Of a stretch of DNA of 64,000 bases, positions 24,301-64,000 are shown one piece after another. Made by a program: the position numbers and the translations under genes. Under the pieces are notes generated by a model. The model had not been told where the DNA came from. It did not search any database and was given only the letters and a program-made list of their open reading frames with translations. This DNA is from Bolinopsis microptera (taxonomy: Eukaryota; Ctenophora; Tentaculata; Lobata; Bolinopsidae): contig NC_087084.1 of NCBI RefSeq assembly GCF_026151205.1, positions 8,922,894-8,986,893 on the forward strand, read 5' to 3'. Positions within the stretch are counted from its first letter, which is position 1. Every line of letters starts with the position of its first letter.

Positions 24301-27300
24301 GAAAATCTATTTGTTAATTTTTCTAATCAAACTGTTGCCAGACTGGATGCAATCTCCAATAAACTAGAAAGCTTCGATTCTAGATTAAATTCAATCTCGT
24401 TAAAACTTGATTCGTATGATACCCGAATGTCTTGTATCGAGGAGAGAGCGGGGTCCCATCAACTCGAAACCACAGATTTGTCAGACCGTGTCGTTGCCTT
24501 GGAAAACTTAAATGTTGAGCTTGAGGCGAAAATAGAAACTCTCTCAGGGTCAAACTCAGCTAACTTAGAGTCAGGATGGGAGCCAGTAGGTTCTCCTGAG
24601 ACCAAAATAGCCTTACTTGGTGATTCTAATTCCGGGGGGAAAATCAAATTCGGACAGGGAAAAGGGACCTTAGGGGCCGCTTTACCTGGATCCGATACCT
24701 TTGTAGCCAAGGTCGAGGATTTACCAGAGCCGGAAACATATAATGGCATTTCTGATCTTATTTTAGCAGTAGGCACTAACAACTTAAAAGTAGATTCTTG
24801 TATCCCGGAAGATTTGGTCAAATCTACCTTCACCTACATAAGCAAAGTCAGAAAAGCACATCCTTCGTGCCACATCTTTTGTCCCGGGGTTCTCCCATCT
24901 ACCTCCACTGTAATCAATACCAGAATCACAAAGTACAACTTTTATTTGAACGATATGTGCCAACATTTACCAAATGCATCATACGTAGATATGAAAACAT
25001 TCCAAAGCAACAACGGCAAGCTGCTACCGAAATTCTCAGTAGGGAATTCGGACTCTTTTCATCTTAACGAATCCGGCTTGAAGGTTTATTTTAGCCGACT
25101 TAAATTTTCCCTTAGGGCCAGACATGGCCTCCCTAATATCAAAAGGGGTCAACGTAGGCCAAACGATCCTCCAGCAAGCTCTGGTAACCATTCGTAACTG
25201 TTATAATATAGCCTATTTATTTATTAGTTGATAAACTTTTAGTATATCACAGCACTCTAGCGTGTGTTCACTGTATTGTATTGTATTATCTCGTACGATT
25301 TTCGAGAGACCCCTTCAAGTTTTAACACTTAACTCACGCATAGCAATTATGCAGCGTGTGCCTTTTCTTCAAGTAGTGGTTCACGGGTTCCGTGGGGTGG
25401 GAGCTACGTGGTAGGGCTTAAGGGCTCTTCTTCAACTTCTTATCTGTTATTCAACGTGCGTATCTCCTCATATTATTTTACCCGCTAGTTTTTATAATAT
25501 TGTATCCGTCAGCCTGATTCTATTGAATTTACTATTGATTGACTTGCTCCGTGCAGTCGTTTTCCAGTTAAGGTAACTTAGCATTTATAAAATTATCCCC
25601 TCTCATTATAACACCTGTATAATACCGACGTCGAGAGACCAGTTTTTTGTCCACGTGAGTTACCTCTTTATCACCATCAATTTCACCTATTTATTATGTT
25701 TTATAGGTATTTTAAAAGGGTCTGTTTGACTCGTACTGATTTTTTGTACAGTGCATTATTCATTATTCAAAAGTTTAAAAAAATCTTTATAAAGGCTATG
25801 CCAACAAACATACAAAAAAAACTCTTGCTCGGTGTATAACCGGTATCTATTTAAACATTATGATATAGTTGCTATCATTCTCATTTTGTTCTAGATTTTC
25901 TGATCTTCTATCTGCTACAGTTTCGGGTAAACTGTCACAACTTCTCCTTGCGACGCGTTCACTCATGTTTCCAAGATACAGTGTGTTTCTCACCTTGCTA
26001 CCTCGTCACTTCGATTATTGGTTCTACTATTATTCCAATAATAACTGTTATAATAAGGGCGGGGCCAGTGTAGGTTGTAGTACAAACAGGCTGTATTATT
26101 GTAGAAATTATTTTTCTACGATCGTTTTCCGTGTTTCTATGTCGCGTGTGCATGTTTTTTGTGTTATTTCCATTGTATATACTCATTTTTTCACGACACC
26201 ATCACCTTCATTTCTGGGGTTTAATTCAGGGGGGGGTAAAAAGCTACACTAAGGAAGGGCGGGGCCATTTTCAGATTAACAATGACTCCGCAAAATAACA
26301 GCAATAGTGGGTTGGCATGCCCAAAAATCGGTTCTTTTAACTGCAATGGTATGGGTAACCCGATTAAACGTAATCTTGTTTTAAACTGGCTTAAAAATAA
26401 ACCTGAGCAAATCATTTGTCTCCAAGAAACACACTCAACTCCTCAAGTTGAGAGAGACTGGAAACATTCTTGGGATGGGGATATAATCTTTAACCATGGC
26501 ACTTCAAACTCAACCGGTATTGCTTTCCTTGTTAAAGCTGATGCTCCGAATCTCCATATTATTAACCAGCGTAGCATCAGCCAAGGTCGTGCGACCCTTG
26601 TCGAGTACAGTTAGAATACGACTCTCTCAAACTGTGTTTAGTGAATGTCTACTGCCCCAATAATGACGATGTTTCATTTCTCGAAAACGTATTTCTAGAA
26701 TCACTCAGTCGTGCACGAGATGATCATATAATATTTGTGGGAGACTGGAACACGGTTCTGAACAACATGTTGGACAAACAGGGGGGGGTCTACCACCCAT
26801 GCAAATAGTCGCTGCCAGAATTTTCTCAATGATTCCATTAACGACTATGGGTTTAGTGATATTTTCCGTCTTAACAGAGGTGCTGAGGCACGGGTTTGTT
26901 ACTCATTTTAACAAAAAGTACAAAACTCAGTCTAGATTAGATTTTTTCTTGATTCAAGATAGCCTGGTCAATCTACCTGTATGTGATACAGAAATAAGCC
27001 ATGGCTATAAATCTGATCACAGCTACATCTCGCTATCCCTCCAGGGCTCTACTATTGCACACGGAAAAGGATATTGGAAAATTAACAACTCTCACCTCCT
27101 AGATCAAAATTTTATTAACGAAATAAAGAAAATCATTCATAATACAAAAGAAGATAGCTTTGATTCTTACAGGGGTCTTTGGGACGTTATAAAAATCAAA
27201 ATAAAACAGTTTGGAATGACCTTTGGTAAAAAGAAAAAAAAAGAAATCACATTGAAAAAAGAAAAGTTAAAAAAAGATATTGAAGACTGTAAAAACGATT

Positions 27301-30300
27301 CGAATCTAGTAAACTGTACGATACTACAGAAGAAATTATTTGAAGCAGAGTTGGATTTAAATCATATTATAGATCAGGAGGTGAGAGGTGCAATTACCAG
27401 ATCACGTGTGAAATGGACAGAGGAGGGGGAGCGCTCGACTAAATACTTTTTTGGACTTGAAAAATCAAACGGCAAGAAAAAATGTATTAGTAAATTGATA
27501 GACAACGACGGAAATGAACTAACGGACCAGGATAACATCTCTAGTCACGTGGTTAACTTTTATCAGAATCTGTATAACTCAACTAACCCATCTCCCACTG
27601 AGATAGATAATTATGTAACCAGCAGCGAGCTTGAGCAAATCCCACAGGAAATTACTGAAACTCTGGAGGGACCTATTTCGTTACACGAAATGGATGCTAT
27701 TGTGAACAAGTTAACAAACAATAAATCCCCAGGTTGGGACGGGTTATCTGCTGAATTTTATAAAACCTTTTGGTTGGATATCAGGCAGATCATTTACGAC
27801 TGCTATCTAGAATCTATTGACAGTGGATGCCTGTCGCCTTCGCAGAGAATAGGTATTCTTACTCTTATTCCCAAGCCTAAAAGCCCAGTGGAACTTAACT
27901 ACATAAAAAATTGGAGACCTATTACTCTGCTTAACATTGACTATAAAATCTTCACACATATAGCTAAGAATAGGATTATGAAAGCTATCCCCAGCATAAT
28001 CAGCAAAACCCAGTCAGGCTTTCAAGCAGGCAGGAGTACAGCAGATAATCTTATTCTCATGTCAATGGTTCTGGAATCATTTAACAACGACTCGGAACAA
28101 GAGGGTCTCCTTTTACAGATTGATTTTGAAAAATGTTTTGACTCGGTAGAACATAACTTTGTCTTCAGTACGCTTGAAAAATTAGGTTTCAGTGATTATA
28201 TTATTAAGTTGATTAAAGTGGCTTTTCAGGCGTGCTTTAGCTACGCAAATATTAATGGGTTTTTAAGCGCACCTATTTATCTCCTCAGAGGTCTTCATCA
28301 GGGTAGCCCACTCTCTCCTATTCTATTTCTACTTGTGGCTCAAACTTTCTCGAATAAACTTCAGATCAACCCTAATATCAGGGGTATTAACATATCGGGT
28401 GTGGAAATTCTACAGAGTCTCTTTGCAGACGACACTGATCTGTTTCTGAAAGCTTCAATAGAGAGTGTAGAGGCAGTTATGGTAGAACTCAGAACGTTTG
28501 CTCAGTGCTCGGGGTGTAAAGCTAACATCGACAAAACTAGATGTATTCCTTTAGGTCGTGCTCGCCTTAATACAACTCTTCTAGCGTCCCTTCAAATGAA
28601 CTACGGCAATGATTTTTTAACAAATAACTTTACGGCTTTGGGTATAGTTTATAGGAATGATTGCTCACTTATGGATATATAGTACAGTCAAATCCGTCCT
28701 AATTTAAGCCTTTGTCGGACAAAATTCGCAACAAAGCGATTTTAACGGGATATGGTCGGGACAGGTCCCAGGAATCATTCCAGAGAGTTCCCAAAATCCT
28801 CGACTTCAGGAAAATCCACAATTACCACTTTTTTACCACCTTTTTACCACTTTGGTTTTCTGCAAATAAGTCACGTTCTGAATATCCTAGAAGATTCTAG
28901 TTTAAAGCATTGTGTTTAGAAAACAAAGAAGAACAACTTTTCCTTTAACAACTTTTTCAAAAATAAATTATTTAATTAATAAATTAAATAATTAATAAAA
29001 TTTCAAATATTTCAAAAATATATTTTCATAAAAAATGTTCACAATTACATTCCACGTGCAATGAACTAATTTTTATAAAAATTTTCACTTTCAATATTTT
29101 GGACTTGTAAAATTTTCGAAATTCGTAAAGAATAACCACTATTTATCACTTTTTACCACATTGAATCTCCGCTAATAAAACGACTTCTGAATGTCGTCGA
29201 AGGTTCTAGATTGAACCAATGTGTTCAAAATATAAAAGAGAACAACTTTTTATCTGACAACCTTTGGATTAGATAATTAATTGATTTATTAATTAAATAA
29301 TAATTAAATTTTTAAAAATTTCAAAATATACTTTTTATCAAAAATATTTGCCGTGACGTAAAATGAATTTACTTGAATAACAGAACATACACCGTCACAT
29401 AGATTAGATAACAGATTTAAAAAATTCAGATAAATGGAATAAACGGTAAAATATCAAAATTTGTACGATACTATTATAGCTTATTTATAAATATTTACAC
29501 ATCATATCTCTCGACTTACAGAAACATCAACTGGATTAGACCACAGAACTGCCTCTCTGCAAATCAAAACATCTGCAAAACGATGTGCGAAACGGATTGA
29601 AAATGACGAAGTTATCAAGCAATTTGTTTATCTCGTTAGCGAAATTGATTGGGTTATCAATGATTACCTAATTGCTTATCACGTGACAGGGTGCTAGGAT
29701 ACCGTAATTGGGCTTTCTGCACGATTTCTGTGCCACGCTTTCACTGGATCAGACACCACCAGTCGGATCCACGGAGTTGGTAAGGATCGGCTATTCAGAA
29801 CGATTCCGATAGTGGGAATCTAGTGCACTAAGCTACGGAGAAAGTCACGAGAAATTTTTGGGCGAGCGAATTAGGAACTTAGTAAGAGCCTAACGTATGT
29901 GTACTATACCACCTCCCCCCTCCCCCGCACAATAATTTACCCTGTCTGTAATCCGGTTTGAGGATTTATCATTTAGTGCGATCTCTACGTTACAGAATGG
30001 ACATTTGTTTAAACTGTGTTCGCGGACTAAAGATGGTCCTGTCTCAGTTACAACGAACTCCTCTTCATTGGCCGATATAATAGTTAACAGCACTATGTTT
30101 ACAGTATGCACTGAAGGGGTATCCTAGTTGCTTGAACTTTTAACAGGTGCCCCGCCTCATTTAAACCTCAATTAAGTTTCCTATCATTCGGTTGAGTCGA
30201 CCGTTGAGATCCCTTAGATCCAATGGATCCTTAGCTACTCCCTAGACTAGGTGACACTGGGATTCGAACCCTGAACCTCTGCGCAGAAGGCGGATGCTCT

Positions 30301-33300
30301 AACCGCTAGGCTAGATATGAATCTTTGGAACTGGTCTATGGTCACTGTCTGCAATAATACACACAAGACGTCACTCAGAGCTGAATCAGTCATGCCGTTG
30401 TACTGCCGTTTAATTTCGTTCAGTGACCAGGGGTTGTTGATCCAACCTGTGGTGCGTTGATTTCTTTATTTATACAAGGTATGAGAGGCGTCAGGATAAA
30501 GAATAGGACTGTACGTATCCGTTTCAAATTTGCTGGGCATAGTTTAAAAGTTAGTGCACTTACTTAAAAGATAAATAGTTTAAATAGTACCTGAGGACAG
30601 CAACCCTTTCCATATTTCATTCCATGCAAATTTACATTGTCGATCATTCGCCCTCTTAAAGCTATTCACCGAAACTAACTCCTCATTTGCCTGGTAAATT
30701 AAAACATTGTATTGGTTAAGAATAGCTGATTTCATAAAAATCGAGATCACTAGATGAAGCAAGACTTTCAGTTCTTGAACAGAAGTCGCAATCTTCAACA
30801 GCAGACATCAAGTGCGAACAGCTCCCGCCAACATTCTTATCGTGTTTACCATCAGCAGCAGGTGTGGGATGAGAATGACCTAGATCCGATAAGCTGGGAT
30901 GGAAGATGAACAATGGGACACATGTACCAGTGACCACTCTTATGAGTACAGCTCCGAAAAAGCTCATTCAAAAAATCAGTTGCAAATGTTTAAAGTCAGG
31001 TTGTGGCAATGCTTGTTCATGCAGAAAAGCAGGAATACATTGTGGATCAACCTGCCTCAAATGTCAGGACAATTGCAGCAATGTGCCAGCTGAGGACTCA
31101 TAAGTTAGACTGTTATCTAGTATATATATGGTTATATAAAGTACTACTTCGATTTCCCGATTAATTTAATGGAAATTTGTTAATTATTCGTGATATGTAA
31201 TTTTAAAATATTTTGATCAAAAATAATTTTTATAATTTTTGGATATTTGTTTAATAATCGAATTAACTAATTAATTAATTATCTAATCCAAAGGTTGTCA
31301 GATAAAACTTTGTTCTCTTTATATTTTGAACACATTGGTTCAATCTAGAACCTTCTACGATATTCAGAAGTCGTTTTTTTAGCGGAGATTCAATGTGGTA
31401 AAAAGTGGTAAATAGTGGTTTTTCTTCTCAAATTTCGTAAATTTTAAAAGTTCAAAATATTGTTAGTGAAAATTTTCAAAATTTTCATAGAAATTAGTTC
31501 AATATTCGTGGAATGTAATTGTGAACATTTTTCATGAAAATGTATTTTTGAAATATTTTAAAATTTATTAATTATTTAATTAATTAAATAAATAATTTAT
31601 TTTTGAAAACGTTGTTAAAGAAAAAGTTGTTCTTCTTTGTTTTCTTAACACAATGCTTTAAACTAGAATCTTCTAGGATATTCAGAACGTGACTTATTTG
31701 CGGAAAACCAAAGTGGTAAAAAGGTGGTAAAAAAGTGGTAACTGTGGATTTTCCTGAAGTCGAGGATTTTGGGAACTCTCTGGAATGAATCCTGGGACCT
31801 GTCCCGACCATATCCCGTTAAAATCGCTTTGTTGCGAATTTTGTCCGACAAAAAGACGGATTTGACTGTACTAGTACTAATAGTCAACAGTAATTATAAT
31901 GATAAATTGATTAAGGTTCGGTCTTGGATTAACAGGTGGAACAAGAGGGATCTGACGGTAATGGGTAAATGTACAGTTATCAAAACTCTCCTCTTTTCCC
32001 AATTAACATACCTGGTTCCTCCTCTCCCCAGACCAGATGCTTCCTTTATCAGAACTTTTGACACGATTATATTCCATTTTCTTTGGGGTTGCAAACGGGA
32101 TAAAATAAAACGTGAAATCATAACCCGAAACAAGGAACATGGAGGCCTGGGACTATTTTATTTATCCGATTTTATTATAGGTCTTAAAACTAGTCTTATT
32201 TCAAAGCTACTAAATGATTCCTTTCACCACACTTGGAAAGATATTATGATAATGCAACTGAAATTTCCCGAGCATATCACCATCTCTGTAGAAAACGGTC
32301 TCGCAAATATCAACTGTAATTTTACACAGGACGTACTTGATTGCTACACTGAGTGGAAGATTAGTTCGGCTAATGCAGCCTTGGGTTCTATAGATCACTG
32401 TGTGTGGTCCAACCCAGCAATAACTGACATCGGGTCCAAACTTTGGAACAATCATCTTATTGATAGGGGAATATTTTACATCTCAGATTTCCTTTCTATA
32501 GACCAAAGTACACTCCTTAACTACGATATGTTCATGAACAAGTGGGAGCTGTCTCCGAATACGATTTCCAAAATTGATTACTGTAACATTATCATGGGGA
32601 TACGGAGATATAACTGTCCCACGATTAACTCAAGGAATATCGAATTTGTTGACCCGAATATAAAACTTCAATTTTTACATTCTGCAACTGGGCAGGTGAA
32701 GGGAAGCAAAATTCGGGATAAAATGTACGATTCTATTTGCCCAAACGAGCTGTCTCCTTTACGTCAGTGGGTTATCGACTTGAACAGTCATTCCATCGAC
32801 TGGGCAGTCGTTCTAAGCAACCTGTTTTTCTTAGTATCTAAAAACTTTAAGTTGATTCAATTTCAGTACAAACTTTTAATGAGGATCACAACTTGTAGAT
32901 ACATGAGACATAAGATGAAAATTGTTACAGATACTCCCATGTGTAGCCTGTGTAAAACATATTTAGAAACTATTCCTCATATTTACCTCCATTGTATTCA
33001 CACAAATAGCTTCATCACAATACTTGAAGACTTTATTAAAGGAAAATCGATAGAAATTACGAAGATCCTACTAAAATTAATTTTATAATCTGTAATCACA
33101 CTTCACAAATTATAAATTATTTTAATATAGTTGCCAAATGGTACATTAGCAAAAAATTTCAGGCAGGAGACTTGCCGATCTGGCAGGGGTATATCAAACT
33201 TCTTAAGCTATCACTTCAAGGAGATAAAATAGGTCACAGAAGTTCTATTGTGTCGATCTTGGCCGATTAGGGTAATATGTCCACTCCATTTTTATTGCTG

Positions 33301-44892: not shown

Positions 44893-46528
44893 TAAGGTAT
44901 GACCTATATTTGTGTTAGAGCTGCAAGGTATGACCTATATTTGTGTTAGAGCTACAAGGTATGAACTATATTTGTGTTAGAGCTAAAAGGTATGAACTAT
45001 ATTTTTGTTAGAGCTACAAGGTATGAACTATATTTGTGTTAGAGCTACAAGGTATGAACTATATTTGTGTTAGAGCTACAAGGTATGCACTATATTTATG
45101 TTAGAGCTACAAGGTATGAACTATATTTGTGTTAGAGCAACAAGGTATGAACTATATTTGTGTTAGAGCTAGTAGCTACAAGGTATGCACTATATTTGTG
45201 TTAGAGCTACAAGGTATAAACTATATTTGTGTTAGAGCTACAAGGTATGAACTATATTTGTGTTAGAGCTACAAGGTATGAACTATATTTGTGTTAGAGC
45301 TAAAAGGTATGAACTATATTTGTGTTAGAGCAACAAGGTATGAACTATATTTGTGTTAGAGCTAGTAGCTACAAGGTATGCACTATATTTGTGTTAGAGC
45401 TACAAGGTATGAACTATATTTGTGTTAGAGCTACAAGGTATGACCTATATTTGTGCTAGAGCTACAAGGTATGACCTATATTTGTGTTAGAGCTACAAGG
45501 TATAAACTATATTTGTGTTAGAGCTACAAGATATGAACTATATTTGTGTTAGAGCTACAAGGTATAAACTATATTTGTGCTAAAGCTACAAGGTATGAAC
45601 TATATTTGTGTTAGAGCTACAAGGTATGAACTACATATATTTGTGTTAGAGCTACAAGGTATGACCTATATTTGTGTTAGAGCTAAAAGGTATGAACTAT
45701 ATTTGTGTTAGAGTTACAAGGTATACACTATATTTGTGTTAGAGCTACAAGGTATGAACTATATTTGTGTTAGAGCTACAAGGTATGACCTATATTTGTG
45801 TTAGAGCTACAAGGTATAAACTATATTTGTGTTAGAGCTACAAGGTATGAACTATATTTGTGTTAGAGCTACAAGGTATGAACTATATTTGTGTTAGAGC
45901 TACAAGGTATGAACTATATTTGTGTTAGAGCTACAAGGTATGAACTATATTTGTGTTAGAGCTACAAGGTATGAACTATATTTGTGTTAGAGCTACAAGG
46001 TATGAACTATATTTGTGTTAGAGCTACAAGGTATGAACTATATTTGTGTTAGAGCTACAAGGTATGAACTATATTTGTGTTAGAGCTACAAGGTATGAAC
46101 TATATTTGTGTTAGAGCTACAAGGTATGAACTATATTTGTGTTAGAGCTACAAGGTATGAACTATATTTGTGTTAGAGCTACAAGGTATGAACTATATTT
46201 GTGTTAGAGCTACAAGGTATGAACTATATTTGTGTTAGAGCTATAAGGTATGAACTATATTTGTGTTAGAGCTACAAGGTATGACCTATATTTGTGTTAG
46301 AGCTGCAAGGTATGAACTATATTTGTGTTAGAGCTACAAGGTATGAACTATATTTGTGTTAGAGCTACAAGGTATGAACTATATTTGTGTTAGAGCTACA
46401 AGGTATAAACTATATTTGTGTTAGAGCTACAAGGTATGAACCATATTTTTGTTAGATCTACAAGATATGAACTATATTTGTGTTAGAGCTACAAGGTATG
46501 CACTTTATTTGTGCTAGAGCTACAAGAA
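44893..46528 (+). repeat. 31-bp minisatellite, about 50 copies
   Basis: The unit runs from GCTACAAGGTATGAACTATA through TTTGTGTTAGA. Copies vary at a few positions, mainly GAACT/GACCT/GCACT and ATG/ATA. Two units carry an added GTAGCTA. The central copies are the most uniform. A five-copy version of the same array lies at 49790-49947, in front of the second segmental duplicate. Confidence 0.95.
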
Positions 46529-47332
46529 CCAAGCTTTTTCAATTTTAATCACTCTTCCTAGAATACAGATTCTACAACAATTTCAAGGCCTCGTGTAATT
46601 TAGAGGCCTGGTGTAGCTTCAATGAGATGTGTGTAGTGGAGACTACCTCCCGTTACATGATATGTGTTAGTAAGTAAAATATAATATTAAGAAACTAATT
46701 TTTCCTATCAATGGGCTCATGTTACGTTTATGATTGAATGTGAATTCCATTCTGTAATTTTTACAATTTTATTTCGTTCATTCGTTGCCAAGCCGACAGT
46801 TGTGGTGGTGTTTGAACAATGAACATCGTCCCAGAATAAATGAAATTATGAACCACACTCACGCAATCCTGAGAAAGTCCCAGCCGCATTACTGATCTAC
46901 AATTACAGCGGCTAATGTTCTACTTTCCTTTGTTTTTCTATAATTTTCTCCATTCACACGCTTTTGTTTCCATCAGTAATGACTATCAGTATCACAATTT
47001 TGTCATGTGATTAGAATCTAATTTACCAGTATGAATCCGATTTTTTCCGTCGGGGAACAGTCTTACAGAAGTTACATCTGGGAACCAGACCAATCTTAAT
47101 GTTGGTATTCTTTATTTAACATGAATAAAACTTATTTAACATAAATAATGAAAACTGAGCTTCCTTTTTTATACAATTCATGACTCCAAGACTATTTTGA
47201 AGTATGACCCGACACTGATGCCTACGCTTTACTGCCCAGTGAATCATTGAATAATTTTTGCAATTTGAATTCTCTTTATTATTGATAATGAAACAGATAT
47301 CTTGCAGGACCAGCAGCGGATCAGAACTAGAT

Positions 47333-47734
47333 ATGGGTGAAGCAGTTCTCATAATATTGGGGATCTCTGTGCTTTTAATTGTATCGTGCGTGTGCCAATG
47401 TTGTTCATGTGATGGTGAGGAACTTTTGCCAACTGTTCCTGAAAACCCAGCGAATATTACTGAGAACCCTGTAGCTCATAGAACACAGCTTGAACAAGAT
47501 TCTATCAGATCAAATTCAGCATCAACTCAACCACGAGGAAATCCAAACAGAGTTGCTCATTTTAATTTGACGACCCCTGGAGACGAAACGACAGAAACAA
47601 CCGGAGTTATTATAACGTCGGGACCCCCCAGGTATCCGTACAGTGCCGCTGAGGTGGCGTCATGGGAGTCACCAGATATATCACCTCCACAAGATGCTCT
47701 TCCCCCTTCTTATGATGACCTTTTTAAGTCTTGA
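47333..47734 (+). CDS. Small single-pass membrane protein with C-terminal PPxY motif, copy A (133 aa)
   Basis: The likely start is the ATG at 47333, directly before a membrane helix (AVLIILGISVLLIVSC). The frame upstream of it differs between copies, so the preceding exon is probably untranslated. An acceptor CTTGCAG|GACC lies at 47307/47308. After the helix come a cysteine cluster CVCQCCSCD (possible palmitoylation), two ENP repeats (ENPANITENP), a Ser/Thr/Pro-rich cytoplasmic region with TSGPPRYPYSAAEVASWESP, and the C-terminus LPPSYDDLFKS. PPxY motifs bind WW domains, for example of NEDD4-type ubiquitin ligases. The architecture recalls WBP1/Shisa/VOPP1-type proteins but lacks their cysteine-rich ectodomain. 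Homology is not established. Confidence 0.7.
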   Translation: MGEAVLIILGISVLLIVSCVCQCCSCDGEELLPTVPENPANITENPVAHRTQLEQDSIRSNSASTQPRGNPNRVAHFNLTTPGDETTETTGVIITSGPPRYPYSAAEVASWESPDISPPQDALPPSYDDLFKS

Positions 47735-49789: not shown

Positions 49790-49947
49790 TTTGACCTATA
49801 TTTGTGTTAGAGCTACAAGGTTTGACCTATATTTGTGTTAGAGCTACAAGGTATGACCTATATTTGTGTTAGAGCTACAAGGTATGAACTATATTTGTGT
49901 TAGAGCTAAAAGGTATGAACTATATTTGTGCTAGAGCTACAAGAACC
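49790..49947 (+). repeat. Short array of the 31-bp minisatellite (five copies)
   Basis: It has the same unit as at 44893-46528 and directly precedes duplicate B. The array was thus part of the duplicated segment and has expanded in A or contracted in B. Confidence 0.9.
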
Positions 49948-50946: not shown

Positions 50947-51137
50947 CTTACTCCAAGTAAGTGCCAAGACTATTTTGAAGTATGACCCAACATTGATGTT
51001 CATGCTTACGCCGTACTGGCACTACCCAGTGAATCATTAAATAATTTCTGCAATTTGAATTTTGAATTCTCCTTGATCTTATTATATTGATAATGAAAAA
51101 AAATTCCTGCATGACCAGCAGCGGATCATAACTAGAT

Positions 51138-51539
51138 ATGGCCATGGGTGAAGCAGTTCTCATAATTTTCGGGATCATCTTTATGCTTTTATTCATATCG
51201 TGCGTGCGCAAATGTTGTTGTGATGGTGATGAACATTTGCCAACTGTTCCTGAAAACCCAGCAAATGTTACTGAGAACCCTACAGCTCATCGCACACAGC
51301 TTGAACAAGATGTGAGACGGGGTCAAAATGTCACGATTAATGAAGCAGCTGTAATTGTTTCACCATCCGCTCCTGCTTTTAACTTGTTATACAGTGCTGA
51401 GGTCACATCTATCAGATCAAATTCAGCACCAACTCAACCACCAGGGAATCCAAACAGAGTTGCACCTGATATATCACCTCCACAATATGTTCCACAATAT
51501 GCTCCTCCCCCTTCTTATGATGAGCTTTTCAAGTCTTGA
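51138..51539 (+). CDS. Small single-pass membrane protein with C-terminal PPxY motif, copy B (133 aa)
   Basis: Paralogue of the 47333 gene. It starts MAMGEAVLIIFGIIFMLLF, then has RKCCCDGDE, ENPANVTENP, a rearranged middle with VTINEAAVIVSPSAPAFN, and the C-terminus YAPPPSYDELFKS. The splice acceptor of the other copies is changed here from CAG|GACC to CATGACC. An in-frame TAA lies before the start, supporting initiation at 51138 or 51144. If the intron cannot be removed, the copy may be silent or transcribed from a new start. The reading frame itself remains open. Confidence 0.6.
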   Translation: MAMGEAVLIIFGIIFMLLFISCVRKCCCDGDEHLPTVPENPANVTENPTAHRTQLEQDVRRGQNVTINEAAVIVSPSAPAFNLLYSAEVTSIRSNSAPTQPPGNPNRVAPDISPPQYVPQYAPPPSYDELFKS

Positions 51540-53248: not shown

Positions 53249-55232
53249 TCAGTTAACAGGCTGCTGGAATACAAAGCCCCACTGCCACCTCTGTTCGGGG
53301 ATACCAGTACAGTCTCCTACATTCAGGTAGGTGTTATCATGACCAAGACAGAGTCCTCCTGAAGTTGTTATCTCTCCTTTTGTGTTTAGTGTCCAATGCT
53401 GGTTTCCTTTTTGGCCATGGCAACTGCCCAGTTGTATTTGGTCACGTGATACAGCGTCCAGACAATTCTCCGCGTTCTGTGACTGTTTGATCTCGTTTGT
53501 TCTCTTGTCAAACTGCCAGTACTGAAACAGATAATCTGGTTAATAAATTTACTTCGACTAACAAGGTTTATAAAATCAAGAATATTAGAAATATTAGTTC
53601 TCATATGTGTCACGTGTCACGTGACAGTGATCCTGGGTTATGATTGGTTGCTACTGGAAACAAGAATAACCTCCGCACAAATGAAATCTAGTAAATATTA
53701 AAGTTTAAATGTTAGATTAACTAACCTGGGAGCCACCCTGACCGTGACAGGAATACATTCCGATTCTAGAGGGAGGACTCCAACCACCTAGATTGTCAAC
53801 ACATCTGTTCTTAGTCCCCATGTTACGAATCTGGGAGTTAGAATCATTATTTAATTATTTCATTATCTCATTATCTCATTATCTTATTATCTCATTATCT
53901 CATTATTTCATTATTTCATTATATCTCATTATCACATTCTCATATTAATATCACATTATCTCATTATCTGCTTAAGTACTAACAATTAACATACTTCATG
54001 GGAGTGACCATTATCATCTGTTACACTTACAGTGCCAATAATTAGCGTGATTCATAACAGAATCTATCCATAACATATGCATGGCTATTCTAGATATTTA
54101 TCACAAAGATAAGCGTAAAAAATGAGTAATTTCTCCTATATCCTAACCTCTCCATGAGCGATGTAATCTCTGCTGGGAACGTCCATCTCTGGATACACAG
54201 TCTCCAGGAACCATCTGCGGGTAAATTAGTTTCACTTTCAATGATAAAAATAGAATCAGATTCACTTTCTGTTTCATTTAATCTAATACTTGCTATCATT
54301 TTAGGTAACACCTTTCAAAACGTACTTGAATGATTTGCACTGTAGGCGTTTCCTAAGGTCCACCCTGCTGGAAATATCTCCCATGTCTACAGATCTGGCG
54401 GGTGGAGATATCTGGTAGAAGAAATCTTTGTACTCATCTAGCCAGACCTAGAGAGGGTTTTAGTTGAGGATAAACCTACAGATATAACTTATTAGGAAAG
54501 TTCAGAACTTTTACTTTATTCTGGTTCTAATGAATTCGATGTTCAAGCGGCGAAATTATTTGAGTAGAGTTAAACTTAAGGATTGACGAAGATTTTATTA
54601 AACCAACTTTTTAAAACACGAAACTTAAATTATAGTGCAATTTTAGGGACAGCATTACAACAAAAAATCATTTGCGAAAATTCAAATAAATTTAGCTCCG
54701 ATTCACAAACCTCGGCAAGTCTCTTAGCGTTTTTAGCCCCCACATCTTTCTTTGAACTGTAGGGAAATGTTTTCCTGTACACGTGAGCAATGGTACTACA
54801 TGTTGATATCTCGAGTATACCACCACACATCCATATCTGAGGGAGTGTGACGTCATGTGAGGGGATGTGACGTCACGTGAGTTAGTGTGACGTCATGTGA
54901 CGTCATGTGAGAGTGTGACGTCATGTGAGACAGTGTGACGTCATGTGAGAGAGTAGGACGTCATGTGAAGGAGTGTGACGTCATGTGAGGGAGTTTGACG
55001 TCACGTGTGGGAATGTGACGTCACGTGAGGGAGTGTGACTTTTGAGGGAATGTGACGTCACGTGAGGGAGTGTGACGTCACGTGTGAACTACATTAGGTT
55101 TCTGTTTAACTTACCCTGAAGGATATTTCAAGGTTCTCAGATCCCCAAACGTCCATTCCCTGATCATATGCACCCAACTCGAAGAAGTATTTCCTATCCA
55201 TGGCGAACAAACCTCCCGCCATTGTTGGTGAC
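53249..55232 (-). CDS. Polypeptide N-acetylgalactosaminyltransferase (GALNT-like), C-terminal half
   Basis: Six exons on the minus strand join in frame: 55232-55115, 54836-54711, 54447-54326, 54214-54148, 53830-53726 and 53521-53249 (TGA stop). The first encodes [20 protein letters not shown] and [17 protein letters not shown], the conserved Gal/GalNAc-transferase block of the catalytic domain. The second has [20 protein letters not shown] and the third [11 protein letters not shown] with [15 protein letters not shown]. The last three encode the ricin B-type lectin domain: [48 protein letters not shown] and QRWQWGF. The enzyme starts mucin-type O-glycosylation in the Golgi. The membrane anchor and the catalytic exons with the DxH motif are not seen upstream to 64000. 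They may lie beyond the window, or the gene may be truncated. Confidence 0.92.
53850..53965. repeat. (CATTATYT)n simple repeat
   Basis: Repeats of CATTATCT/CATTATTT lie in the GALNT intron directly upstream of the exon ending at 53726. Confidence 0.85.
54845..55087. repeat. Minisatellite of TGACGTCA (CRE-like) sites
   Basis: A unit of about 22 bp contains GTGACGTCA(T/C)GTGAG and repeats about eleven times in the GALNT intron between the first two exons in the window. TGACGTCA is the palindromic cAMP-response element; several units also create CACGTG. Any regulatory role is untested. Confidence 0.85.
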
Positions 55233-55599: not shown

Positions 55600-57230
55600 G
55601 AAACCAACATTTCCCGCCCTTTCCATCGCCATTTTAATTGTTGTCCCTAGGATACAGACTCTGCAACAATTTCAAGGCCTCATGTAGGGTCCGGGACCCC
55701 CTCATGTAGCTTCTTTGGGACATGTGTAGTGGTGCCCAGGTGGTGCCTCTCTCCCGTAACATGATATGTGTTAGTAAGTAAAATATAGTGTTAGGGAACC
55801 AATTAGTCCTACCAATGGGTTCATGTTACGTTTAATTTCATGACTGTACGTGTATTCCGTTTGGTAATTTCTAGACTTCTAATTCGTTTACTCATTGCCA
55901 TGCCGACATTTGTTGTTACTTGTTATGTTTTTGTTTTTTTTGAAAAATAATTTAGACATCGTTCAAAAAATTAAATTATGAACCACACTTGTGACGCAAT
56001 AATGAGAAATTCCTGTCTAATACCAATTACCAGTATTACTGATCTATAGCGGCTGGTTTTATAATTCCCTCTGTATTTCCCTCTGTAATTCCCTCTGTAT
56101 TTCCCTCTGTATTTCCCTCTGTATTTCCCTCTGTATTTCCCTCTGTATTTCCATAATTTTTCTACAATTTTTCCACAATTTTTCCATAATTTTTCCATAA
56201 TTTTTCCATAATTTTTCCATTAGTTTAGATAGTTGTCATCTGGCCAGACATTATGCAACTTATATTGCAATTCCATTAGTTTTATATCAAAAAAATGTCA
56301 ATTGAATTTTGCGTGGCTAAAATGAAACGCTTGATTCTAATATAGTACTGCAATTTTAACATAAATACAACTTATTTAACATAAATAATGAAAACTGAGC
56401 TTCCTTTTTTATAGGGGGAGGGGGGTCATGAGTATTTTTGAGAATTTTTGAATCTGAGAATTTGACCATTTTCGCCGGGAATACTCAAAAATTATTTTTG
56501 AATCCGAGAAATTCAGCATGGATGTCTCATTTTCTCAAAAATTATTTATGAATCTGAGAAATTCAGCATGGATTTCTCAAAAATTGTCCATTCCAAAATA
56601 GTGCAATGTGGTCCAAAAATACTCAAAATCAATTTTTGAGAATGAGAATTTGGCATTTTCGTCGGGACTCTCAAAAATACTCATGACCAACCCCCGTGAA
56701 TCGATGAATAATGTTAGCAATTTGAATGCTCCTTATTATTGATTACGAAACATTAAACAATAAAAATGATATTAACACAGATTTCTTTCAGGACCAGCAG
56801 CGCTCGATGAACGTCGCAGTTTATGTTTGCACAATAGTGTTAATCTCTGTGGTTTTTGTTGCACTTATACCAATCGTGCTCAAATGTTGTTGTTCATGTT
56901 TGATAAAATGTTGCGATGAGGAGGAGAGAAGTGTTTATGAGAACCCTGTAGCTCACAGAACACAGCTCGAACAAGATTCTATCAGATCAAATTCATCACC
57001 ATCTCAACCACCAGGGAATCCAGACAGAGTTAGACATTTTAATTTGACGACCCCTGGAGAGGATACGACAGATACAACCGGAGTTATTATAACGTCGGGA
57101 CCCCCCAGGTATCCGTACAGTGCCGCTGAGGTGGCGTCGTGGGAGTCACCCGAAATATCACCTCCACAAGATGCTCTTCCCCCTTCTTATGATGAACTTT
57201 TTAAGTCTTGAACTTACGATCTAATCTTGA
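55600..57230 (+). repeat. Partial, diverged third copy of the segmental unit (copy C)
   Basis: It shares ACAATTTCAAGGCCTC, the CCCGTAACATGATATGTGTT block, TTTAACATAAATAATGAAAA and the PPxY gene with copies A and B, but with more differences. Between them lie a 12-bp TTCCCTCTGTAT array (about 56063-56155), a TTTTTCCATAA array to 56220, and repeated TTCTCAAAAATTATTT blocks at 56430-56690. Confidence 0.75.
56807..57211 (+). CDS. Small single-pass membrane protein with C-terminal PPxY motif, copy C (134 aa)
   Basis: It starts at ATG 56807, a few codons after an intact acceptor (TTTCTTTCAG|GACC at 56791/56792). The membrane helix is VYVCTIVLISVVFVALIPIV, followed by KCCCSCLIKCCDEEE. The first ENP unit of copy A is missing and one ENPVAHRTQLEQD remains. 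The C-terminal ~90 residues are nearly the same as copy A, including TSGPPRYPYSAAEVASW and LPPSYDELFKS. The N-terminus is much more divergent than the C-terminus, which suggests gene conversion or constraint on the cytoplasmic tail. Confidence 0.7.
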   Translation: MNVAVYVCTIVLISVVFVALIPIVLKCCCSCLIKCCDEEERSVYENPVAHRTQLEQDSIRSNSSPSQPPGNPDRVRHFNLTTPGEDTTDTTGVIITSGPPRYPYSAAEVASWESPEISPPQDALPPSYDELFKS

Positions 57231-57505: not shown

Positions 57506-57786
57506 TCTTAAAAGTAAGTTTTTATGTGATGTTGGAAATCAAAGTGTTTTTTTCTTCAACAAACAGTTTGAACACCGTTCCAGAAAGAATTAAATTCTGA
57601 ACCATACTCAGGAAATAGTATGCAATTCCTGACTTATCCCAGCAGCCTTACTAAATACAGATCTAGAGCGGCTAGTATGCCATTGTTCTATAATTGTTCT
57701 ATCAGTAATTCCGATACGGCGATAAAGCCTGATTTTTTCTTACTTTGATATTTGGGACAGAATGGTAACCGGTCATATTATATATT

Positions 57787-60700
57787 TGGCAAGTTTCCAT
57801 AAACGATATTTTATGATCGGCGCCGATAATCGCTTATTGAGCGCTTTTTCGGCGCTTTTTTTTTTAAAAACCGTTTACAATCGCTTTTTTTACGATTATA
57901 AACGGTTCAAAAAAAATCGCTTATAATCGACTATAATTGGTGTCGTAATTCAAAAAAGCGCTTTTTTGAATTTAAAAGCGCTTATAAGCGCTTTTAAGCG
58001 CTTACTAGCGTCGCTGAGCGATTTGAAAGCGGTTTTCCAGTAGGATTGGCGCCAAAAACGGGTGGATAAGCGGTTGGCCGGATAAGCGATTCGTAGGCGC
58101 TTTTTTGAACCATTTATAAGCGATTATAAGCGCTTATAATTGGGGTGCAATTTAGCTGTTTGTAAAGCGCAAATAAAGCGCTTATAAGCGCTTTTAAAAT
58201 TGAGTCAGGAAAACGCTATATTACATCTTATAACCGCTTATAATCGATTATAAGCGTTTTTTTAGAAATCGCTTATAACGGCTAATTCATCGCTATTTCA
58301 CCGCTTTTACCGCTTTTCCTATCATCCATGGCCAGGTGAGCAGGAATTAAAAAGCGCTTATAAGCGCTTTTTCGATGCTGCCCCTAGCCTGGTCGGAACG
58401 GGGTAGTGCCCAGAATTTAAAAGCGCTTATAAGCGATTTCTCAATTCACCTTAACCTGGTTAGAACTTTCATGTGCTTTTCTGAGCAACCTGGGGTGCAC
58501 CGGCAGAGTCAGGATTTAAAAGCGCTTATAGGCGCTTATGATCGCTTTTCTACCACTTTTCCTATCACCCATGGCATGGGTTGGCAAGAATTATAAAGCG
58601 CTTATAAGCGTTTTTCAATGCTGCCCCTTACCTGGTCGGAACGGGGGAGTGCCCGGAATAAAAAAGCGCTCATAAGCGCTTTTTAAATGCTGCCCCTAAC
58701 CTGGTAGGAACTGGAAATCAGAGTGCCCGCTTATAAGTGCTTTTCTGAGAAACCTGGGGTGCACCGGCAGAGTCAGGATTAAAAAGCGCTTATGATCGCT
58801 TTTCTACCGCTTTTCCTATCACCCATGGCCTGGTTGGCAAGAATTATAAAGCGCTTATAAGCGCTTTTTCGATGCTGCCCCTAACCTGGTCGGAACGGGG
58901 TAGTGCCCGGAATTTAAAAGCGCTTATAAGCGATTTCTCAATTCCCCTTAACCTGGTCGGAACTTGCATGTGCTTTTCTGAGCAACCTGGGGTGCACCGG
59001 CAGAGTCAGGATTTAAAAGCGCTTATAGGCGCTTATGATTGCTTTTCTACCGCTTTTCCCATCACCCATGGCCTGGTTGGCAAGAATTATAAAGCGCTTA
59101 TAAGCGTTTTTTCAATGCTGCCCCTAACCTGGTCGGAACGGGGGAGTGCCTGGAATTAATATGCGCTTATAAGCGATTTCTGAATTCCCCTTAACCTGGT
59201 CGGAACTGGAAATCAGAATGCCCGCTTATAAGTTCTTTTCTGTGCAACCTGGGGTGCACCGGCAGAGTCAGGATTTAAAAAGCGCTTATAGGCGCTTATG
59301 ATCGCTTTTCTACCGCTTTTCCTATCGCCCATGGCCTGGTTGGCAGGAATTAGAAAGCGCTTATAAGCGCTTTTTCAATGCTGCCACTAACCTGGTCGCA
59401 ACGGGGGAGTGCCCGGAATTAAAAGGCGCTTATAAGCACTTTTTCAATGCTGCCCCTAACCTGGTCGGAACGGGGGAGTGCCCGGAATTTAAAATCGCTT
59501 ATAAGCTTATAGTTATAAGCGATTTCTCAATTCCCTTCAACCTGGTCGGAACTGGAGAGTGCCCACTCATATGTGCTTTTCTGAGCAAACTGGGGTGCAC
59601 CGGCAGAGTCAGGATTTAAAAGCGCTTATAGGCGCTTATGATCGCTTATCTACCGCTTTTCCCATCACCCATGGGCACCTAAGGATTTGAAAAGCGGTTA
59701 TAAGTTATAAGCGATTACAATCACTTTTTATTGCTGGTTTTTACCGATTTATCTATCATTTATCAACATGGATTTAAACATAGTTGTTTGACTGGCGATC
59801 TAGAAGCCAAGCAAGAAGGCTAAGTGCACGGCGCGGCAAAGTTCTCCGACAATAATTGCCAGAAATTGTAAAGCGCTTGCAAGCGTTTATTTATATGTTG
59901 TTAATGGTGATGGTTGTCCTGGTGGCGGTCGATGCGCGCTGCGTCATCAGTCATACACACTTCACATTCAGAACTTGCAAAAGAAAAATATTGTATATGA
60001 AATTAAATTATTGCGCTGGGCCACGCTCAGTCTGTCAACGAGTATGACAGGCGTCAGGCATGTTCATGTCATTCCAAGGAATCTCTAGCCGGGCTGAGCG
60101 AATCACGACGTCTGAAAAAAGTGCGGTGCTCATTGGATTTTAGTGTGTGCGTGACCAGCATTCACGTACTTGTTCATAATCAATCGTGGACATAAAAACA
60201 AGTGCACGCTGAGTACCAATAGGAAAAAAAGTAATGTATATATACGCTAGTAAAGCCGCGCGCGTGCAGGCGTGCTGAGATAGCTTGTAAAATTTGGTTA
60301 TTAGATAGTAAAACAGCAACAAATAAACCGCGCCAGCTTGCGCGTTTGAGTCGCTCCTACGAAATCGCTCCCCCAAATTTTAAGAAAATTCTTGTGAAAA
60401 GGCCTTTGAGTTTGGGTATGGCATTGATCTAAATCGGTGTATTTTTTGGACGCTGATCCAGAATCACCCGCCATGACGTAGGGTAAAAATATTTCCCTGG
60501 AGAGTTACATGGGCAAAACCGTGTTAGTCACGTGACAGGCTAGTAAAACATGATTTCGATTGTTTAGGGCTCATGTTAGGGTTTGGGTTGTGGTACGCGG
60601 GTTATGGATAGCTCCGCGCGGGGTTATTATATGGTTGGGATTAGGGTTTATGTTAATTTGTTTTGTACGGCTGCAAAACCATAAAAACCAAGGTCACGTG

Positions 60701-63700
60701 AAATTTTTTCCCGATCCATGACTCGTGCCGAAGGCACAAAAGAGTCAAGGACAAGGGTTAGCGATCGAGGTTTTTTTTGTATATGGTAGCTTTGCGACCG
60801 AGCGTGCGTGCGTGCGTGCGTGCGTGCGTACGTGCCTGCAAGCACTGTTATCGCCCACGTGACTACCTGCGCAAAGTTATTTTGCGTGATAATCTGAATT
60901 ATATAATTGTTGGCGCGCGGCGCTGAACCAACCAAGTACATTATTAATTTCATCATGTACGTATCCCACTAGGCACTAATTGATAGCATATTATTATTAT
61001 TTTGAGTTAGTATTACTATTTTGCACAGATCCGTGTCAGGTTGCATAAACAATAAACATATGGTTACATAGAAGTATACACGATTTTCAAATTCAATATA
61101 GAATTATATTAACTGGGCGGCGCACGGCAGTCGGCATGTCACTTCGCCATATTTGCATGTTTATACAAACAGTAAAGACTGGGCCGTCCCCAGGTTGTAT
61201 GGAATATGATAAATACGCCATCACGGATCGTGAAATTGAGCGGCCATCCACAAAAGAAAAGCGGCCGCATTTCTTGTTGGGCGAGCGAATAAGCAAGAGC
61301 CGGTTTTTATACAAAAATAAGCGTACACATGATATACAATGCAATAAAGCTAAGAGTTTCTGCATGTTCGATTATTTTGCACCTAACCATGTGCCTTCGT
61401 GCTGCCGTTGCTCTATTCAGATAGGTAGTGCGCCATCAACATTGAACATTGAGCCGCGCGTGCCAACTGTATAGTAGGATAGTTTTTTAGCGCTTATTTC
61501 GGCCAGCACAATTTTCTTCAAACAAATAAATATTGAGTATCCTTCCCGACCTCCGATTGCAACAAAAATTGGTGAGCTTACTCTGTACTCATAGACTTAC
61601 GAGGAAAGTGTCTGAAATAATACGACAAAAATCAACGAATTTGGTCAAATTACGCGAGTTTTACAGCTACTTTTGCTCCAAAAGCCTGGCATAGCCTGGC
61701 GTAATTAAACCCTCTAAAACGCGCAAATAGGCTTACGTACCTGGGGACCTCAGGCTATCATGTTCATTAATAGAAATTCGGCGGAATGACAGGCTGAGCG
61801 CGGCCCAGTAAAAATAGGCGTGTTTATGCGATTTTACAATCTAACTCAGCGCGCGGCTCTTGTAGCGCATACGTCACTTCTTTTTTATTGGTAGTTGGCG
61901 TGCACGTGATCTTTTGCGCGGCTGTAATTGGTTCTGAACGATCACGTGAATGCTAGTCCAATGAGCATTGCACTTTTTTAGGGCGATGAAAGTCGTAATT
62001 CACTCAGCCCGAATAAATATTTGGCGGAATGCGGAATGACAGGCTGAGCCAAATTCCGACCAGGTTAAGGGGAATTGAAAAAACGCTTATAAGCGCTTTA
62101 TAATTCTTGGCAACCAGGCCATGGGTGATGGGAAAAGCGGTAGAAAAGCAATCATAAGCGCCTATAAGCGCTTTTAAATCCTGACTCTGCCGGTGCACCC
62201 TAGGTTGCTCAGAAAAGCACATGCAAGTGGGCACTCTCCAGTTCCGACCAGGTTGAAGGGAATTGAGAAATCGTTTATAAGCGCTTTTTAATTCCGGGCA
62301 CACCCCCGTTCCGAACAGGTTAGGGGCAGCATTGAAAAAACGCTTATAAGCGCTTTATAATTCTTGCCAACCAGGCCATGGGTGATAGAAAAAGCGGTAG
62401 AAAAGCGATCATAAGCGCCTATAAGCGCTTTTAAATCCTGACTCTGCCGGTGCAACCCAGGTTGCTCAGAAAAGCACATGCAAGTGGGCACTCTCCAGTT
62501 CCGACCAGGTTAAGGGGAATTGAGAAATCGCTTATAAGCGCTTTTAAATTCCGGGCACTACCCCGTTCCGACCACGTTAGGGGCGGCATTGACAAAGCGC
62601 TTATAAGCGCTTTTAAATTTCGGGCACTCCCCCGTTCCGACCAGGTAAGGGGCAGCATTGAAAAAACGCTTATAAGCGCTTTATAATTCTTGCCAACCCA
62701 TGCCATGGGTGATAGGAAAAGTGGTAGAAAAGCGATCATAAGCGCCTTATATAAGCGCTTTTAAATCCTGACTCTGCCGTTGCACCCCAGGTTGCTCAGA
62801 AAAGCACATGCAAGTTCCGACCAGGTTAAGGGGAATTGAGAAATCGCTTATAAGCGCTTTTAAATTCCGGGCACTACCCCGTTCCGACCAGGTTAGGGGC
62901 AGCATCGAAAAAGCGCTTATAAGCGCTTTATAATTCTTGCCAACCAGGCCATGGGTGATAGGAAAAGCGGTAGAAAAGCGATCATAAGCGCTTTTTAATC
63001 CTGACTCTGCCGGTGCACCCCAGGTTTCTCAGAAAAGCACTTATAAGCGGGCACTCTGATTTCCAGTTCCGACCAGGTTAGGGGCAGCATTTAAAAAGCG
63101 CTTATGAGCGCTTTTTTATTCCGGGCACTCCCCCGTTCCGACCAGGTAAGGGGCAGCATTGAAAAACGCTTATAAGCGCTTTATAATTCTTGCCAACCCA
63201 TGCCATGGGTGATAGGAAAAGTGGTAGAAAAGCGATCATAAGCGCCTATAAGCGCTTTTAAATCCTGACTCTGCCGGTGCACCCCAGGTTGCTCAGAAAA
63301 GCTCATAAAAGTTCCAACCAGGTTAAGGGGAATTGAGAAATCGCTTATAAGCGCTTTTAAATTCTGGGCACTACCCCGTTCCGACCAGGCTAGGGGCAGC
63401 ATCGAAAAAGCGCTTATAAGCGCTTTTTAATTCCTGCTCACCTGGCCATGGATGATAGGAAAAGCGGTAAAAGCGGTGAAATAGCGATGAATTAGCCGTT
63501 ATAAGCGATTTCTAAAAAAACGCTTATAATCGATTATAAGCGGTTATAAGATGTAATATAGCGTTTTCCTGACTCAATTTTAAAAGCGCTTATAAGCGCT
63601 TTATTTGCGCTTTACAAACAGCTAAATTGCACCCCAATTATAAGCGCTTATAATCGCTTATAAATGGTTCAAAAAAGCGCCTACGAATCGCTTATCCGGC

Positions 63701-63989
63701 CAACCGCTTATCCACCCGTTTTTGGCGCCAATCCTACTGGAAAACCGCTTTCAAATCGCTCAGCGACGCTAGTAAGCGCTTAAAAGCGCTTATAAGCGCT
63801 TTTAAATTCAAAAAAGCGCTTTTTTGAATTATGACACCAATTATAGTCGATTATAAGCGATTTTTTTTGAACCGTTTATAATCGTAAAAAAGCGATTGTA
63901 AACGGTTTTTTTTTTAAAAAGCGCCGAAAAAGCGCTCAATAAGCGATTATCGGCGCCGATCATAAAATATCGTTTATGGAAACTTGCCA
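57787..63989. mobile_element. Foldback transposon with ~1.9-kb inverted arms (6.2 kb)
   Basis: The ends are TGGCAAGTTTCCATAAACG at 57787 and its inverse ending at 63989. TATATT flanks both sides (57781-57786 and 63990-63995), a candidate 6-bp target duplication, though AT-rich. The outer ~540 bp of the arms are nearly identical. Further in, each arm has about five units, 230-340 bp apart, marked by ACCTGGGGTGCACCGGCAGA. Within the units, 35-90-bp cassettes are separated by AAGCGCTTATAAGCGCTT or variants. The middle 2.3 kb is unique. No transposase was recognised, so it is non-autonomous or of an unknown type. Confidence 0.8.
59700..62035. other. Unique, CpG-richer core of the foldback element
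   Basis: The core is richer in CG dinucleotides than the surroundings, as in the GCGCGCGTGCAGGCGTGC block near 60257, and has a (GTGC)n run at 60802-60828. Open frames at 61136-61474 (112 codons; includes CCRCSIQIGSAPS) on the plus strand and 60648-60956 on the minus strand have no recognised domain. A block at about 61740-61830 (CCTGGGGACC, GGAATGACA, GAGCGCGGCCCAG) resembles 34900-35010. No gene is claimed. Confidence 0.45.
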
Positions 63990-64000
63990 TATATTTTTAC

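Follow-up and report, generated by a model that had tools for sequence, protein, structure and literature searches.

The locus examined here raises the questions of what a 6.2-kb inverted repeat full of short palindromes is, how it came to lie where it does, and which enzyme may have moved it. The sequence studied was the whole 64-kb stretch G000:C13:8922894-8986893, called the window in the following, from an assembly of 264.65 Mb in 232 contigs; contigs and loci are referred to by C and L numbers.

An earlier note on this DNA had suggested a foldback element placed by transposition, and this is what was found: the 6,201 bp of window 57788-63988 form a foldback transposon, with long inverted arms that carry internal repeats around a variable middle, and with dispersed paired copies, mostly flanked by their own target-site duplications (exact in 26 of 32 copies read). 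Its ends read GGCAAGTTTC...GAAACTTGCC with the terminal motif GGCAAG. The ends and flanks had been placed slightly wrongly: the initial T of the proposed TGGCAAG belongs to the duplication ATATATTT, which is 8 bp long and not the 6-bp TATATT suggested before. The inverted repeat itself was described correctly, as the main arms of 1,142 nt (57886-59027 and 62750-63891) show 99% complementarity, while the outermost part (57782-57890 and 63886-63994, 109 nt) is 94% complementary and a gapped alignment of both arms from their ends gave 97.5% over 1,425 columns. Each arm consists of a palindrome-rich outer domain of ~565 bp with a weak 10-bp period, followed by a cassette array (Table 1).

Table 1. 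Parts of the foldback element and its flanks, in window positions.
Feature	Positions	Strand	Remarks
Left target-site duplication	57780..57787		8 bp, ATATATTT
Left terminus	57788..57820	+	33 nt, GGCAAGTTTCCATAAACGATATTTTATGATCGG
Left arm, outer domain	57788..58353	+	Rich in palindromes; weakly periodic at 10 bp; strongly self-folding (fold of 57788-58340)
Left arm, cassette array	58354..59680	+	Inner limit approximate; GCGCTTATAAGCGC-like sites alternate with cassettes of ~45-105 bp; higher-order repeat of ~243 bp
Middle region	59681..62060		Longest frame 61049-61471, 141 aa, without Pfam match
Right arm, cassette array	62061..63423	-	Inner limit approximate
Right arm, outer domain	63424..63988	-	
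Right terminus	63956..63988	-	33 nt
Right target-site duplication	63989..63996		8 bp, ATATATTT

The alternation of cassettes with a palindrome was borne out: GCGCTTATAAGCGC or close variants separate the cassettes in both arrays, and all 47 matches with at most two mismatches in the 64-kb window fell within 57978-63799, inside the element (0.09 expected by chance; none of 100 shuffles gave 47). Palindromic 14-mers with up to one mismatched pair numbered 87 in the element, 14 in the adjoining 6.2 kb and on average 8.55 in mononucleotide shuffles (n=20). The cassettes had been called unique and recurring in a set order, of which the recurrence holds and the order is partly set, while uniqueness does not apply: tandem repeats of 243 bp × 4.6 in the left arm and of 254 bp × 3.7 and 257 bp × 2.2 in the right arm give the arrays a higher-order period of ~243-257 bp, and to the eye a single ancestral unit could have given rise, by divergence, to the main cassettes. 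The left outer domain (553 nt) folded far better than its shuffles (z -9.4; 0/100 as good).

The cassettes contain a second, directional motif, [AG]CCTGG, which in the halves of 23 elements occurred 729 times in the forward and 68 times in the reverse orientation. A perfect GCTTATAAGC preceded it within 90 bp in 414 cases, and in 268 of these 414 the motif sat 27-29 bp after GCTTATAAGC; any tandem array would give such fixed spacing and orientation, which alone are no demonstration of binding. Spacings between palindromes (n=689) were most often 69 bp (122), 10 bp (86) or 65 bp (77), and the periodicity of the arms reached 0.36-0.39 at lag 10. Judged by these motifs, the arms look like arrays of putative protein-binding sites.

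Several other repeats lie in the window. Mirror-image repeats (28822-28999 and 31562-31741) stand between two retrotransposon parts, a reverse transcriptase frame (26724-28682) and a frame with a weak zf-RVT match (31742-33088), so another inverted-repeat element seems to have inserted in a retrotransposon. A 31-bp satellite forms one block of 52 copies (44894-46526) and a second of five (49792-49943), near which three related small frames end in PPSYDxLFKS (47255-47734, 51132-51539, and 56726-57211). A 20-bp repeat in 12 copies (54838-55084) contains the palindrome TGACGTCA.

The earlier note had proposed a search for further copies with the same ends, and this search revealed dozens of pairs. 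A first search scored 40 of 364 candidate ends; genome-wide, 224 ends with up to three mismatches to the 33-nt terminus were then counted, against none for a reversed-pattern control. Pairing 166 of the 224 (95 exact ends and 71 ...GATCGT ends) yielded 72 elements, which range from 89 to 8,961 bp around a median of 5.76 kb, are spread over 13 contigs (C1, C3-C13, and C16) and total 382 kb or, as a lower bound, 0.14% of the assembly; 29 of the 72 were read in sequence. Among the 22 ends left unpaired, two (C7:12909761 and C13:10205286) have facing partners of other spellings ~1-1.5 kb off, and C1:4838742 is faced by another end at a distance of 0.2 kb. At two places, the right end of L013 (C11:11581232/11581238) and C7:13239733/13239740, the end of one copy lies 5-6 bp from that of another in opposite orientation, perhaps through insertion beside an existing copy.

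The tally of exact 8-bp duplications is made up of 16/21 in a first set, both copies of a 4.68-kb size class (L029 and L030), 7/8 small copies, and one copy scored by eye. Inexact ones matched at 7/8 (L019 and L020), 6/8 (L015), 4/8 (L013) and 2/8 (L022) positions, and that of L038 was not exact either. The 18 tabulated duplications are AT-rich and loosely palindromic (~NAAWWTTN). Elements of 89, 111, and 165 bp each have exact duplications, and the smallest of them is scarcely more than two facing termini. In a 222-bp copy on C1 (L062), whose 8-bp duplication is exact by eye, the ends are alike in the last 16 nt only, so a short terminus may suffice, although changes after insertion are possible. 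With 224 ends against a control of zero, 72 pairs and 26 of 32 duplications exact, this is a real and recent family and not an artefact.

The relation among copies was followed in the window element, L017, and L019. The middle (59700-62040) is 98.9% identical in L017 and 99.1% in L019, with blocks common to other copies. Over the outer 1,240 bp, the left arms of these three elements are 99.4-99.6% and their right arms 99.0-99.5% identical to each other, compared with 98.8-99.1% between the two arms of one element and 98.6-99.2% between unlike sides across copies; a side-specific signal is therefore clear for left arms and weak for right arms. L023 has a left arm 99.5-99.6% identical to those of the three and a right arm ~91% identical to any, and from these arm identities it follows that the foldback moved as a finished unit, with arms sometimes replaced. 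L029 and L030 lie on two contigs, have different duplications and show 99.4% identity across 4.68 kb. The middles of other copies are mosaics: the order and orientation of their common blocks change from copy to copy, and some middles also contain fragments of other repeats. Homogenisation of arms within elements was considered and set aside: for the outer 500 bp of 23 elements, the median identity was 99.0% within and 98.0% between elements, medians that take in three low elements (L021, L022, and L024, at 72-81%), and the likeness of arms within an element may be mostly explained by recent copying.

No transposase was recognised among the 22 copies scanned for frames. The largest frame was 212 aa in 21 copies (in L022, reverse-transcriptase-like by eye) and 113 aa in L029, and ten chosen interior frames from these copies matched no Pfam family at E 0.5. 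The earlier note had also proposed looking for a larger, transposase-encoding relative, which the genome searches with the family's ends did not reveal, nor did an autonomous partner emerge from two patterns that let the ends diverge beyond nt 13 or 16. Several candidates for this role were rejected. The 4.68-kb class has no frame above 113 aa in L029, to which L030 is nearly identical. Two C12 ends 18 kb apart (L039 and L040) enclose frames of at most 132 aa, and look like a single element split by ~9 kb of other sequence. L061, a Merlin fragment at a distance of 4.3 kb from one of the ends, is a remnant of another Merlin. On C1, Merlin fragments lie no more than 2.2 kb from an end that belongs to the 222-bp family copy, which sits beside a repeat array like the arms of L059. 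The family, apparently non-coding, probably moves by borrowing the transposase of another element.

Of the possible sources, a Merlin transposase is the one favoured here, and a reasonably likely one. Merlin elements are described as encoding a DDE_Tnp_IS1595 transposase, beginning with 5'-GG and making duplications of 8-9 bp (PMC8101967); the GG ends and 8-bp duplications of the foldback family fit this superfamily, and no such transposase was recognised in the copies scanned. Merlin sequence is common in the genome, with 58 PF12762 matches (63/63 candidates scored) and 122 tblastn matches, fragments included. None of the 58 lies inside any of the 72 pairs, a comparison that 44 tblastn places judged new also entered, so the element is not filed as Merlin, only as possibly Merlin-mobilised.

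Nine of the 58 PF12762 places were read with both flanks, and L059 was read as well. Of nine further upstream pieces, two (L056 and L058) had no clear end. Two complete elements have GGCAG ends with exact 8-bp duplications: L042 and L049, with ends GGCAGTATCGAG with GAGCACAG and GGCAGTTTACAA with GAATATCC. By eye, L059 (GGTAACTCGG with GAATCGTC) has a GGTAAC end and an 8-bp duplication, and the family of L055 begins GGCAACTTGTACG, with GGCAAC. The end search in the nine loci left seven without a pair, at least partly because the 4-kb pieces were too short. The terminus of the foldback family scored better than 96-98% of shuffles against the ends of L049 (187 and 121 of 5,000 as good), whereas 216 and 1,096 of 5,000 reached its score against two B1 ends, 618 against L042 and 3,795 against L059; among the Merlin families with ends read, the similarity is thus marginal or absent.

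The arms of Merlin elements offer a further parallel. In five of ten Merlin loci (L041, L042, L045, L047, and L049; three of ~6 families) one perfect 10-nt palindrome occurs 6-10 times, a different one in each family (GTCCATGGAC, GTCCGCGGAC, and TAGCCGGCTA), while in the other five every palindrome occurs at most twice; no palindrome reached five copies in 14 window chunks (largest 4) or seven flank chunks. The arms of L045, L046, L048, and L059 show a periodicity peak at lag 11 (0.58-0.75), stronger than the 10-bp periodicity of the foldback arms. GGCAAG, the palindrome and the weak 10-bp phase fit this Merlin pattern, which is suggestive only. Some Merlin elements have a second frame with a helix-turn-helix region (L042:2358-3233, minus strand; L049:2039-3172, plus strand), and in L047:1001-2443 (minus strand) the transposase frame is extended by such a region. 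All three resemble CCDC106 (PF15794) weakly, at E 7.6e-5 to 0.1 and below the curated cut-off, and a further frame in L043 had no match. Such a second protein is not mentioned in the available text of the Merlin description (PMC8101967).

Taken together, the element is read as a young copy of a non-autonomous foldback transposon of the cut-and-paste type, fairly likely to be moved in trans, with arms that are putative accessory-site arrays. A DDE transposase, most likely of Merlin (IS1595-like) type, would act in trans on the short terminus, and the arms would be amplified arrays of accessory binding sites, symmetric in the case of GCGCTTATAAGCGC and directional in the case of [AG]CCTGG. Galileo offers a precedent, since additional binding sites for the transposase are present in the repeats of its arms, as PMC4079207 reports from cited work. 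The predicted binder may be the transposase or an accessory DNA-binding protein, and candidates are the transposase itself and the second protein of some Merlin elements, whose helix-turn-helix region scores below Pfam cut-offs. Unequal exchange between repeats would have enlarged the arrays, which would leave arms variable and the outer domain fixed. An unlikely elaboration is that the Merlins of this genome rely on two proteins for recognition, the helix-turn-helix protein reading a family-private motif near the helical repeat, and that the foldback parasite multiplied such sites, thereby capturing the complex of an unseen autonomous relative.

hAT elements also make 8-bp duplications, and the ends of hAT and P elements read CAG/TAG or CA. 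A hAT or P transposase, or one from a superfamily outside those considered here, is a rather improbable source: the foldback ends begin with GG and not with these motifs, and although hAT sequence is common (at least 147 matches at E 1e-5, from 150 of 365 candidates), none of the 146 PF05699 matches compared lies inside a pair, the nearest being 3.7 kb from an unpaired end. The 147th match is on C186, a contig without a listed end. The P superfamily likewise makes 8-bp duplications (PMC4168063).

Mobilisation of a non-autonomous foldback by a Mutator-like (MULE) transposase also appears unlikely. MULEs often have long terminal repeats and make 8-11 bp duplications (PMC6446971), both of which the foldback family has, and PF10551 has 88 matches in the genome (131/131 candidates scored); none of the 87 compared lies inside a pair, and the nearest listed end is 68 kb off. 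The one MULE locus read, L060 (C7:3975000-3979500), has a frame of 501 aa, tentative ends GGGAACCGG/GGGTATAGG that are alike at 18 of 24 nt and begin with GG, an exact 8-bp duplication GCATCAGA, and 15-bp arm repeats seen by eye. Since L060 tentatively shares GG ends, 8-bp duplication, and arm repeats, these features are not specific to Merlin; beyond the GG, its ends are unlike the foldback terminus (3,013 and 4,760 of 5,000 shuffles as good). L060 was also the one control locus for non-Merlin transposons, and a poor one because this MULE is nested in another element, whose ends are those of Merlin A2 and whose 8-bp duplication is TAATATTG.

It is very unlikely that the structure persists because it serves the host, for example as a long hairpin RNA feeding small RNAs, and not as a transposition signal: the strong folding and near-identical arms would suit it, but recent copying largely accounts for the arm identity, copies of 89-574 bp, too short for a full array, have moved too, and interiors vary between copies. 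An assembly artefact, which the earlier note had named as a danger and to which perfect inverted repeats can be prone, is practically dismissed by the same ends at many places with different exact duplications and by sister copies that share one middle and stand at different sites.

For the preferred reading of a foldback moved in trans, probably by Merlin, relatives in architecture are known. FB elements of Drosophila have long or repeat-bearing terminal regions, with 9-bp duplications and other repeat units. The same holds for Rehavkus (PMC6446971), including its 9-bp duplications, and Tm1 of root-knot nematodes is alike in its terminal regions and differs in its repeat units. Tetris and Galileo come very close in architecture. 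In Tetris of Drosophila virilis, an outer flanking domain is followed by an array of 220-bp repeats, then by an inner domain and a middle that varies (PMC4079207). Tetris shares with the foldback family this layout, a middle without apparent coding capacity, its non-autonomous nature, an autonomous partner that was not found, and small relatives, in its case the miniature element DAIBAM. It differs in its ~220-bp repeats, and the available sections of PMC4079207 neither describe these as palindrome-joined nor state a relation to Merlin. Galileo, of the P superfamily in Drosophila, is alike in its very long arms, its AT-rich palindromic target preference and the tandem arm repeats of some copies (a single copy in D. 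willistoni), and differs in its 7-bp (rarely 8-bp) duplications and P-type transposase (PMC4168063). The earlier view that repeats inside the arms are unusual even among foldback elements was therefore overstated, though arm repeats joined by palindromes are not described for either element in the parts of PMC4079207 and PMC4168063 available. The Merlin elements (L041-L049, L059, and PMC8101967) share 5'-GG ends, the 8-bp duplication, and repeats inside the element, tandem repeats having been reported within Merlins. They differ by encoding a DDE_Tnp_IS1595 transposase, and by terminal repeats first reported as 24-462 bp (PMC8101967), compared with ~0.7-2.3 kb in most large foldback copies.

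What is new is that cassettes with two motifs are joined by palindromes, that a Merlin source is possible, and that the sizes span such a range. Searches of open-access full text listed no paper that, judged by its title and the beginning of its abstract, would report Merlin-linked foldback elements. The source elements of foldbacks are often obscure, as the authors of Tetris say of theirs (PMC4079207). Here, a family whose paired copies number in the dozens and extend from 89 bp to 9 kb, with their duplications and defined repeat grammar, makes the function of the arms testable, and if Merlin does move this family, the foldback architecture would have arisen in one more transposon superfamily.
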